Source: Mitsuaria sp. PDC51
Lineage (GTDB): Bacteria; Pseudomonadota; Gammaproteobacteria; Burkholderiales; Burkholderiaceae_C
NCBI RefSeq assembly: GCF_900113225.1
Contig: NZ_FOZE01000002.1
Coordinates: 1,674,001-1,738,000, forward strand
Direction of reading: 5' to 3'
DNA length: 64,000 bases
Position 1 is the first letter of the stretch. Each line of letters begins with the position of its first letter. The notes beneath the pieces were generated by a model. That model was not told where the DNA came from, did no database searches, and saw nothing but the letters and a program-made list of their open reading frames with translations. Made by a program: the position numbers and the translations under genes. Below are positions 27,044 through 29,641 of the stretch, piece by piece.

Positions 27044-27304
27044 ATGGCCAGTCCCGCGAAGAAGCAATTCCCGCTGCGCCTCGATCCCGCGCTGTGGGAG
27101 GAGATCGAGCGATTGGCCGCGATCGAGCTGCGCTCGTCCAATGCCCAGATCGAGTTGTTGCTGCGGGAGGCGCTCAAGCGCCGCGGCATCAAGCCGGAGC
27201 CTTCCCCGGCGCCGCGTCGCGGACGCCCCCCGGCGGGCGCTGCCGAGGACACCGGGCAGGCGATGGACGACGCGGCGCCGCACGCCGACTCCAGCAACGA
27301 ATAA
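27044..27304 (+). CDS. Arc-type ribbon-helix-helix DNA-binding protein
   Basis: 86-aa protein. Residues 8-45 fit an Arc/MetJ-like ribbon-helix-helix: the beta strand KQFPLRLD contacts DNA in such dimers, followed by two helices (ALWEEIERLAAIELRSSNAQIELLLREALKRR). The rest is a Pro/Ala-rich disordered tail. It starts 13 bases after the SPFH gene. RHH proteins of this kind are typically autorepressors, so it probably binds the promoter of its own operon. It is not clearly an antitoxin, since the neighbour is a membrane scaffold and not a toxin. Confidence 0.88.
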   Translation: MASPAKKQFPLRLDPALWEEIERLAAIELRSSNAQIELLLREALKRRGIKPEPSPAPRRGRPPAGAAEDTGQAMDDAAPHADSSNE

Positions 27305-27343: not shown

Positions 27344-27361
27344 TTCGCACGACCGTGCTAA
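27344..27361. promoter_or_regulatory. TetR operator, copy 1 (upstream of tetR)
   Basis: TTCGCACG-AC-CGTGCTAA, an 18-base near-palindrome (7 of 8 arm positions pair) just before the TetR gene. It matches the perfect copy at 28045-28062, so autoregulation is likely. Confidence 0.75.
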
Positions 27362-27371
27362 CTTGCGCGCC

Positions 27372-28001
27372 ATGGAAGCCAAGACCGCCCGCAGCGAACT
27401 GACGCAGAGCGCCATCGTCGATGTCGCGCTGGAGATGGCCCGCCTCGACGGCCTGGACAGCCTCTCGATCGGCGAGGTCGCCAAGCGCCTGAACCTGTCC
27501 AAGAGCGGCGTCTTCTCGCGCATCGGCTCGCGGGAGGCGCTGCAGGCCGCGGTGCTGGACGCTTTCGAGAAGACCTTCCAGCAGGAGGTCATCCTGCCGG
27601 CGCTGCGCGAGCCGCGCGGCCTGCCCCGCATGGACGCGATGGTGCGCGCCTGGTTGGGGCGCGTCGGCGGGCCGCACGGCAACTGCCTGTACGTGGCCGG
27701 CGCCTTCGAATACGACGACCGCGACGACGCCATGCGCGAACGCCTGCTCGACGGTGTCCGGCGCTGGCGCTCGACGTTGCGCCGCACGCTGGTCCAGGCG
27801 CAGGACGCGGGCCAGCTGCGCGAGGACGCGGATCTCGATCAACTGATCTTCGAGCTGGACGGCCTCTTCACCGCGCTGGTCCGCGAAGTGCGCTTCCTGC
27901 GCACGCCGGATGCGGTCGAGCGGGCCTGGACCAGCTATCTGCGCCTGATGGCGCCGATGCTGACGGCGCCGCCCACCTCGGCCTCAGAAGCCTCCTGCTG
28001 A
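27372..28001 (+). CDS. TetR-family transcriptional regulator
   Basis: 209-aa TetR-type repressor. Helix-turn-helix at about 31-52 (LSIGEVAKRLNLSKSGVFSRIGSREAL), followed by a helical ligand-binding and dimer domain; the GGPHGNCLYVAGAFEYDDRDDAMR segment resembles the TetR C-terminal class seen next to lipid or acyl-CoA genes. I chose the ATG at 27372, which gives the usual short N-arm. Matching palindromes lie 11 bases before the gene and again 44 bases after it, ahead of a 39-codon gene. The ligand is unknown. Confidence 0.92.
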   Translation: MEAKTARSELTQSAIVDVALEMARLDGLDSLSIGEVAKRLNLSKSGVFSRIGSREALQAAVLDAFEKTFQQEVILPALREPRGLPRMDAMVRAWLGRVGGPHGNCLYVAGAFEYDDRDDAMRERLLDGVRRWRSTLRRTLVQAQDAGQLREDADLDQLIFELDGLFTALVREVRFLRTPDAVERAWTSYLRLMAPMLTAPPTSASEASC

Positions 28002-28044
28002 CACACCCGCCATGCCTTCGCCCGTCCCCCATCCCTGCCTCAAT

Positions 28045-28062
28045 TTCGCACGCTCGTGCGAA
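28045..28062. promoter_or_regulatory. TetR operator, copy 2 (upstream of microprotein gene)
   Basis: TTCGCACG-CT-CGTGCGAA, a perfect 8+2+8 palindrome, 41 bases before the ATG of the 39-codon gene. It shares 16 of 18 bases with the copy before tetR. Confidence 0.8.
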
Positions 28063-28103
28063 CTGATTCGTTTCCCTCTTCCCTGAGCCCAAGGAGCCCT
28101 GCC

Positions 28104-28223
28104 ATGACCATCCTGCTGATCCTGAGCCTGCTGACCGGCGGCGCGCTGTGGCGTGCCTGGGCGTCGTGGCGCCGGCTGCTGCGCATGCTGCCGCGCCACA
28201 ACCGCGACATGGTGCTGTTCTGA
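28104..28223 (+). CDS. 39-residue single-helix membrane microprotein
   Basis: ORF of 40 codons including stop. An AAGGAG sits seven bases before the ATG, and a TetR operator lies 41 bases upstream. The product starts with a hydrophobic helix (residues 2-15, TILLILSLLTGGAL), continues with a Trp/Arg-rich amphipathic part (WRAWASWRRLLRML) and ends PRHNRDMVLF. This is the profile of a small inner-membrane protein with a positive cytoplasmic side. A hairpin (GGCGCGTGC-ATC-GCATGCGCC, 28229-28249) follows the stop. The function is unknown. It could be a regulatory subunit or stress microprotein de-repressed through the TetR protein. Confidence 0.72.
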   Translation: MTILLILSLLTGGALWRAWASWRRLLRMLPRHNRDMVLF

Positions 28224-28354
28224 GCGACGGCGCGTGCATCGCATGCGCCATCCCGTCAAGCCTCCGCCGGGCCGCCTGGTCACGGGATATGCCCGGAGTG
28301 GCGATGTGATGGGGCCTCCTTACACTCCCTGGCTTGTCCCGTTGAGGAAAGTCC

Positions 28355-29641
28355 ATGGCGTGGTTGATGCGCTGGCGGCCCGTGACCGTCGGCCCCGAGA
28401 AGGCGATTGCCCCCGATGAACGCCTGTCCTGGCCGCAGACCGCGGCGCTCGGCCTGCAACATGTGATCGCCATGTTCGGTGCCACCGTGCTGGCGCCGCT
28501 GCTGATGGGCTTCGATCCCAACGTCGCCGTGCTGATGAGCGGCGTGGGCACGCTGCTGTTCTTCTTCCTGACCGGTGGCCGGGTGCCGAGCTACCTGGGC
28601 TCGAGCTTCGCGTTCATCGGCGTCGTCATCGCCGCGACCGGGTACGCCGGCAGCGGCCCCAATCCCAACCTGCCCCTGGCGCTGGGCGGCATCGTCGCCT
28701 GCGGCGTGCTGTACACGGCGATCGGCCTGCTGGTCTCGGCCACCGGCAGCGGCTGGGTCGAGCGACTGATGCCGCCGGTGGTGACCGGCGCGGTGGTGGC
28801 GGTGATCGGCCTGAACCTGGCGGCGGTCCCGATCAAGAACATGGCGCCGACGCCCTTCGACGCCTGGATGCAGGCCGCGACCTTCCTCAGCGTCGCGCTG
28901 GTGGCGGTGCATGCGCGCGGCATGCTGCAGCGGCTGCTGATCCTGGCCGGCCTGGTCCAGGCCAGCCTGATCTACGCGCTGCTGACCAACGGCTTCGGCC
29001 TGGGCACGCCCATCGATCTCAGCAAGGTCGCGGCCGCGCCGTGGTTCGGGCTGCCGAGCTTCCATGCGCCGGTCTTCGACGGCGCGGCGATGCTGATGAT
29101 CGCGCCGGTGGCGCTGATCCTGGTGGCCGAGAACCTGGGCCACCTGAAGGCCGTGGGCGCGATGACCGGGCGCGACATGTCGCCCTTCCTGGGCCGCGCC
29201 TTTGTCGGTGACGGCCTGGCGACCATCGCCAGCGGTGCGGTCGGCGGTACCGGCGTCACCACCTACGCCGAGAACATCGGCGTCATGGCCGCGACCCGCA
29301 TCTACTCGACTGCCGTCTTCGTCTTCGCCGCGCTGATGGCGCTGGTGCTGGGTTTCTCGCCGAAGTTCGGCGCGCTGATCCAGGCCATCCCGCTCGCGGT
29401 GATGGGCGGCGTCAGCATCGTCGTGTTCGGCCTGATCGCGATCGCTGGCGCCCGGATCTGGGTCGACCATCAGGTCGATTTCCGCGACCCGCGCAACCTG
29501 ATGGTGGCGGCCATCACGCTGGTGATCGGCACCGGCGACTTCACCTTGAAAATGGGTGGGTTTACCCTGGGTGGCATCGGAACTGCCACCTTCGGCGCGA
29601 TCCTGCTGCATGCGCTGCTGCGGCGAGGCCGCACGGACTGA
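28355..29641 (+). CDS. Uracil/xanthine permease (NCS2 family)
   Basis: 428-aa NCS2 nucleobase transporter, about 14 membrane helices in two inverted halves. It is closest to the UraA/RutG type. Signature parts are ALGLQHVIAMFGATVLAPLLMG at the N-terminus, GSSFAFIG, the substrate-binding helix region LVAENLGHLKAVGAMTGRDM and TTYAENIGVMAATRIYST. Proton-coupled uptake of uracil is the likely role. The gene stands alone on the plus strand. pyrE, another pyrimidine gene, is 10 kb away. I chose the ATG at 28355. Confidence 0.92.
   Translation: MAWLMRWRPVTVGPEKAIAPDERLSWPQTAALGLQHVIAMFGATVLAPLLMGFDPNVAVLMSGVGTLLFFFLTGGRVPSYLGSSFAFIGVVIAATGYAGSGPNPNLPLALGGIVACGVLYTAIGLLVSATGSGWVERLMPPVVTGAVVAVIGLNLAAVPIKNMAPTPFDAWMQAATFLSVALVAVHARGMLQRLLILAGLVQASLIYALLTNGFGLGTPIDLSKVAAAPWFGLPSFHAPVFDGAAMLMIAPVALILVAENLGHLKAVGAMTGRDMSPFLGRAFVGDGLATIASGAVGGTGVTTYAENIGVMAATRIYSTAVFVFAALMALVLGFSPKFGALIQAIPLAVMGGVSIVVFGLIAIAGARIWVDHQVDFRDPRNLMVAAITLVIGTGDFTLKMGGFTLGGIGTATFGAILLHALLRRGRTD

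Follow-up and report, generated by a model that had tools for sequence, protein, structure and literature searches.

The window (the whole 64-kb stretch of DNA that was analysed) carries a gene for a TetR-family repressor, an open reading frame of 39 codons that follows it on the same strand, and two matched palindromes of 18 bases, one on either side of the repressor gene. The next gene encodes a RutG-like permease. These features are arranged as follows along the window.

27344-27361, no strand: candidate operator 1, TTCGCACGACCGTGCTAA, within the likely tetR promoter
27356-27364, + strand: extended -10 box of tetR, TGC-TAACTT, predicted from the sequence; it overlaps the right end of operator 1
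27372-28001, + strand: tetR, TetR-family repressor of 209 amino acids, with TetR_N and TetR_C_13
28045-28062, no strand: candidate operator 2, TTCGCACGCTCGTGCGAA, perfectly palindromic, between the tetR and microprotein genes
28091-28096, + strand: AAGGAG, ribosome-binding site of the microprotein gene, predicted from the sequence
28104-28223 (stop included), + strand: microprotein gene of 39 codons, identified by its family in relatives, coding constraint and hydropathy
28321-28326, + strand: TACACT, a -10-like sequence before the permease gene, conserved in the clade of the window
28355-29641, + strand: RutG-like NCS2 nucleobase permease (TIGR03616, TIGR00801)

The repressor matches the N-terminal helix-turn-helix domain TetR_N at 24.5 bits (Pfam cut-off 24) and TetR_C_13 at 92 bits (cut-off 27). 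Its structure model (mean pLDDT 82.8) has nine helices and an alpha-helical C-terminal domain, and 2HYJ, a putative TetR regulator from Streptomyces coelicolor, is the best match both in sequence (E 4.4e-30) and in fold (Foldseek E 1.4e-9, 35% identity). The TetR_N domain, the alpha-helical C-terminal domain and a palindromic site conserved with its own gene place the protein in the TetR family. No NCBIfam model reached its cut-off (ScbR 35.9 of 150, AcuR 27 of 247 and BetI 13.4 of 201.3 bits), and equivalog identity with AcuR, ScbR or BetI was rejected on these scores.

Directly 5' of the tetR promoter lies a small ribbon-helix-helix-like open reading frame (27044-27304), which matches RHH_1 (Pfam) weakly and below the cut-off. 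Elsewhere in the genome is a TetR paralog that is 42% identical to the repressor (L068:4023-4670, - strand) and is encoded just 5' of an acyl-CoA dehydrogenase gene. A counterpart of this paralog was detected in all 16 genomes of the genus.

Candidate operators and their conservation with tetR

Both palindromes are present in the sequence at 27344-27361 and 28045-28062, where the preliminary description had placed them. Its count of 16 identical bases out of 18 holds when one of the sites is reversed; in the same direction, 15 of 18 bases are equal. It also held that two such palindromes around a TetR gene are very unlikely by chance. The alternative, that they are chance matches in G+C-rich DNA, draws on a loose search of the 64-kb window, which at up to 3 mismatches returns four matches (both sites, each on both strands): shuffled window DNA contains 2.31 such matches on average, and 23 of 100 shuffles reach four. 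The window shuffle test by itself settles nothing on chance; the whole-genome count does. With up to 2 mismatches, the perfect palindrome occurs at three places in the whole genome (5.85 Mb in six contigs), namely operator 2 (0 mismatches), operator 1 (1 mismatch) and C6:1158570 on another contig (2 mismatches), and a reversed control pattern gives zero places in the same genome at the same threshold. Only two copies lie within 1 mismatch in the entire 5.85 Mb, both beside this tetR. The statement on chance is thus left undecided by the shuffles and upheld by the genome count with its control. Inspection by eye of the DNA near C6:1158570 revealed no related content, and with only this 2-mismatch place at hand, further regulon sites in the genome were rejected.

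Conservation was assessed in 56 aligned loci, 31 of them found by the TetR or the microprotein sequence and 25 by the motif itself. The latter were left out as evidence of motif conservation, for which only the 31 loci chosen without the motif count; their TetR proteins are 46-100% identical to that of the window. Both sites are present in 31 of 31; site 1 differs from the perfect palindrome at 1-3 positions and site 2 at 0-2. When all 56 loci are included, both sites are again found throughout (site 1 with 0-4 mismatches, site 2 with 0-2). The 18-base motif is therefore conserved beside TetR homologues in relatives, which is where the preliminary description had proposed to look for it, and its picture of matched sites bracketing the repressor gene is borne out. 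With both the genome count and these 31 loci against it, a chance origin of the palindromes has practically no probability left, and we rejected it as refuted by the comparison of genomes.

The separate searches agree with this distribution. A search for TetR relatives returned 12 loci, and both sites occur in all 10 close ones (66-98% identity; titled Roseateles, Mitsuaria, Paucibacter, Rubrivivax or Burkholderiales). Neither site was found at the two distant matches (L014 and L015, 31% and 40% identity), nor was the motif found beside the 42%-identical paralog of the same genome, as expected if the site is tied to this TetR group. A microprotein profile run against 299 genomes of the family gave matches in 43 genomes, many of them weak, and returned 30 loci. 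Among these, 24 (the window's own included) have a related TetR gene upstream (46-100% identity), and both sites are present in 24 of 24; the other six (L032, L037, L038, L039, L044 and L045) lack a neighbouring TetR gene and were set aside as chance matches, as were L065 and L067. Within the genus, a site within 1 mismatch was detected in 8 of 16 genomes (two sites in six genomes, one in two) and in none of the other 8, and the 8 site-bearing genomes are the same 8 that encode a close TetR relative (81-100% identical).

The motif search of the 299 family genomes found at least one site in 66, and the reversed control in at least 23 of 299 (counted from the table). Twelve of the 33 loci around motif matches have no related TetR, which fits chance matches given the count of the reversed control. 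L114 (genome G108) likewise has a site and no TetR. In total, the locus occurs in at least 47 of the 299 family genomes (24 via the microprotein profile and 23 via the motif). In a search of the class (369 genomes), the microprotein was found in its own genome only. A search of the order (349 genomes) missed G445, which the motif search showed to carry the microprotein; the profile therefore overlooks distant members, and the reported spread is a minimum. Near locus L030, a third operator copy with 1 mismatch was seen among the matches listed, just 3' of the microprotein gene (G096:C20:579947-579964).

Operator 1 has the consensus TTCGCACGNNCGTGCTAAATT over the 56 loci, and in 43 of them its first base lies 27-28 bases 5' of the aligned tetR start. 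It regularly breaks its symmetry, GAA becoming TAA in about 53 of 56 loci (alignment column frequencies), and this asymmetry creates the putative -10 box, which reads TGC-TAAATT in relatives and TGC-TAACTT in the window. There, 7 bases separate the end of this extended -10 box from the tetR ATG. The pattern of such a box followed by a start codon recurs in 48 of 56 loci with a gap of 6-9 bases (6 or 7 in 46 of the 48), and a gap of only 6 or 7 bases predicts that the tetR transcript may be leaderless. Several relatives also have a TTGACA- or TTGCAA-like box just 5' of operator 1, and in these the -35 and -10 boxes would lie on either side of the repressor. In the window, the alignment shows no good -35 box before operator 1, and a consensus promoter scan of the region scored no sigma-70-type promoter.

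In each of the 56 loci, operator 2 lies 33-86 bases 3' of the tetR stop codon; many relatives have it immediately next to the ribosome-binding site of the following gene. No promoter of its own could be defined at operator 2 from the 56-locus alignment; expression of the microprotein might therefore depend on transcription reading through from tetR, in which case operator 2 would act as a roadblock. Its position just 3' of tetR, directly 5' of a ribosome-binding site in many relatives, and the 7-pair hairpin that the palindrome would form as RNA would also suit a terminator or an element of translation control at the end of tetR rather than a DNA operator. This we consider highly improbable. 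The same sequence stands 5' of tetR; there it shares bases with the likely -10 box, and a transcript started at that promoter would not contain it. The bases themselves are kept, beyond mere pairing. Moreover, the terminator scan gave no terminator-like site, no Rfam family reached its gathering threshold, and the region folds no better than shuffled sequences (z -0.63). An RNA hairpin or terminator at site 2 was rejected on the results of the terminator, Rfam and folding analyses and on base conservation.

The microprotein family and the neighbouring permease

The open reading frame of 39 codons at 28104, which the preliminary description had put forward as an unlisted microprotein gene, is, judged by comparison of sequences, a real and conserved gene. 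A family member is encoded 3' of tetR in 52 of the 56 loci; the proteins have 35-55 residues, and 44 of the 52 have 37-41. In the remaining four loci (L089, L118, L119 and L123) there is no microprotein and the gene of an alpha/beta hydrolase comes directly. Family members consist of a hydrophobic stretch, usually followed by P-x-x-N-x-D; the pattern used, P-x-x-[NHP]-x-[DH], was widened for three rows first read by eye (L066, L120 and L081). In a 25-row alignment M1, P30, N33 and D35 are invariant, and L066 and L120 (family f4), which are outside this alignment, are without the N and the D. The microprotein of the window has an N-terminal hydrophobic stretch, then a segment rich in Trp and Arg, and the C-terminal sequence NRDMVLF. 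It has no match in Pfam, NCBIfam or PHROG, and when 25 members were compared with Pfam, only single-member matches with E values of 0.016 or worse were obtained. The best 15-residue Kyte-Doolittle mean is 2.17 for the window and 2.11-3.34 for seven others (8 of the 52 were tried), suggesting that this is probably a small membrane protein.

In the hydrolase-free clade to which the window belongs, the gene has 39 codons in 8 of 8 copies. The amino-acid changes are fewer than in shuffled comparisons (P below 0.01) in five of seven comparisons with the window; coding constraint is not seen in the other two (4 and 7 base differences), one of which has a dN/dS of 0.98. Pooled pN/pS in this clade is 0.41 for the microprotein (8 loci) and 0.13 for tetR (7 of these 8), so the microprotein evolves faster than the repressor.

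The permease gene starts 131 bases beyond the microprotein gene on the same strand. Its product scores 663 bits against TIGR03616, below the cut-off of 758.65, and 345.5 bits against TIGR00801, above the cut-off of 291.8. Given this arrangement, and the fact that the permease comes next in every one of the 8 loci of the clade with no terminator-like site in the scan between the two genes, the permease could be the true target of operator 2 in the window and the microprotein a leader-like open reading frame. We regard this as quite unlikely. The sequence TACACTC precedes the permease gene in all 8 loci, the microprotein sequence is itself conserved, and in other loci the microprotein is followed by a hydrolase, a thiolase, a GGDEF protein or a weakly isochorismatase-like gene. 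The conserved TACACTC suggests that the permease is probably transcribed from a promoter of its own, outside the regulon. The earlier statement that the second palindrome has only one gene to control gains from this likely separate promoter and is weakened by the missing terminator-like site; the microprotein is probably the sole gene under site 2 in the window.

The hydrolase of the relatives and its absence from the window

The commonest gene order among the 56 loci is tetR - microprotein - alpha/beta hydrolase (39 loci); together with the four loci that have no microprotein, the hydrolase is found in 43. The three members tested match alpha/beta hydrolase families of Pfam, and the best PDB sequence matches of the hydrolase profile are monoacylglycerol lipases. 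One model (mean pLDDT 79.5) shows the alpha/beta hydrolase fold and matches assorted serine hydrolases, esterases and lipases; in the 50 listed fold matches identity is only 13-21%. The third gene of the relatives thus resembles the lipase/esterase branch of the alpha/beta hydrolases, and it is absent from the window: a profile of 31 hydrolase sequences detected no hydrolase in the window flanks or next to the locus in the seven other carriers of the genus, and the same profile recovered the hydrolase in L116 and L081, both outside the set from which it was built.

Relocation of the hydrolase within the genome was also considered. The best match elsewhere in the genome of the window has only 22.9 bits, and the best anywhere in the eight carrier genomes of the genus (the window's and seven others) has 35.7 bits. 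In five other genomes with a hydrolase-free locus (G097, G174, G290, G445 and G541), matches elsewhere reach 44.5 bits at best, and the positive controls of this search (G062, G129 and G272) give 215-366 bits. With no clear copy in any of these genomes, relocation was rejected. A genus genome without the locus (G307) has a 77.1-bit match that is 33% identical to the hydrolase, and no gene related to this tetR lies next to it.

Five further loci are free of the hydrolase, namely L066 and L120 (both from another family), L106, L110 and L121. The gene after the microprotein is weakly isochorismatase-like in L066 (22.4 bits, cut-off 27), has no Pfam match in L120, and encodes a GGDEF protein in L106, a thiolase in L110 and, after about 950 bases, a permease in L121. 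The thiolase gene of L110 and the weakly isochorismatase-like gene of L066/L120 may have joined the regulon in these hydrolase-free lineages.

On a tree of the 56 TetR proteins and a paralog as outgroup, the state of a microprotein without a hydrolase requires five changes, all forced by well-supported branches, and the 5-95% range over bootstraps is also 5. The state of a hydrolase without a microprotein requires one change, in 72% of bootstrap trees. A change count on this tree gives no direction; loss is preferred because the hydrolase-bearing state is commoner and is found on both sides of each change. The simplest reading is therefore five losses of the hydrolase with the repressor, the operators and the microprotein retained. 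On this reading, the enzyme-free regulon is a derived state in which the microprotein outlasts the enzyme. The preliminary description had implied a regulon that is free of enzymes at its root, and this does not stand, since the hydrolase belongs to the unit at 43 of the 56 loci and is absent from the clade of the window.

The absence of the hydrolase throughout this clade, and of the entire locus from 8 of the 16 genus genomes, could also mean that the operon existed for the sake of the enzyme and that the microprotein and operators of the window are relics in a decaying remnant. We find this unlikely, as a full-length, constrained microprotein and both operators are present in 8 of 8 carriers of the clade, and the TetR tree has four more lineages without the hydrolase in which they are likewise retained. 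The missing loci indicate that the locus is dispensable.

A predicted circuit and its relation to known TetR systems

We consider a self-regulated TetR circuit with two operators and the microprotein as its output to be the likely explanation as a whole, reading it from the arrangement of genes and sites. The TetR dimer would bind operator 1 in the tetR promoter, over the extended -10 box, and so repress its own gene; bound to operator 2, 5' of the ribosome-binding site, it would repress the microprotein and, in most relatives, the microprotein together with the alpha/beta hydrolase. A small-molecule inducer would free the repressor, and both units would be expressed. As a first guess, this inducer could be an ester or an acyl compound akin to what the missing hydrolase has as its substrate, given the lipase-like relatives of that enzyme and the acyl-CoA dehydrogenase gene that follows the gene of the 42%-identical TetR paralog. 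In the clade of the window, where the hydrolase is gone, the induced output would probably be the microprotein alone.

A further reading, which we offer tentatively and consider rather unlikely, takes the pair of tetR and microprotein as the true core of the system, with the microprotein as the regulated output itself and the hydrolase as an optional gene that was dropped at least five times. Possibly, the microprotein would then be bound to the membrane and, as a partner of the repressor, signal the inducer to it, or it would act on the membrane in the presence of the inducer.

In E. coli, the genes of ComR and ComC are adjacent. According to the partial text of PMC10141476, ComR (YcfQ) is a TetR-family repressor of ComC (YcfR/BhsA), an outer-membrane protein involved in copper permeability. 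As far as that text goes, the predicted circuit is like this system in that a TetR repressor targets a membrane protein that is neither an enzyme nor a pump, and unlike it in that two matched sites bracket the repressor, the target belongs to a different family and a hydrolase usually comes next. The preliminary description had regarded a TetR regulon whose nearest target is a single membrane microprotein as new to it; a TetR repressor that acts on a membrane protein is already known from ComR-ComC (PMC10141476, partial text). In a survey of 372 Streptomyces TetR regulators, the targets among neighbouring genes are widely varied and include enzymes (60%), membrane proteins (26%) and proteins with no recognised motifs (13%), and 250 of the 372 were divergent from a neighbour (PMC3511530, partial text). 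The target gene is adjacent here as in that survey; unlike the divergent majority that its partial text describes, the genes of this locus have the same direction and the operators lie before and after the repressor gene. A search of the open-licence literature, covering titles and the beginnings of abstracts, with most subscription journals outside its scope, found nothing on this operator, microprotein or operon.

The TetR circuit as such belongs to a known type. Three features seem new: the microprotein family, the conserved layout of two operators around a same-strand repressor gene, and the recurrent lack of the enzyme where the other parts are retained. Because the microprotein is kept without the enzyme, its role need not be that of a helper of that enzyme. 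The lineages that lack the enzyme and keep the repressor, the operators and the microprotein represent a natural experiment, and a conserved microprotein family without a Pfam model that comes with a likely repressor and two candidate operators offers an entry point to the function of a tiny protein.
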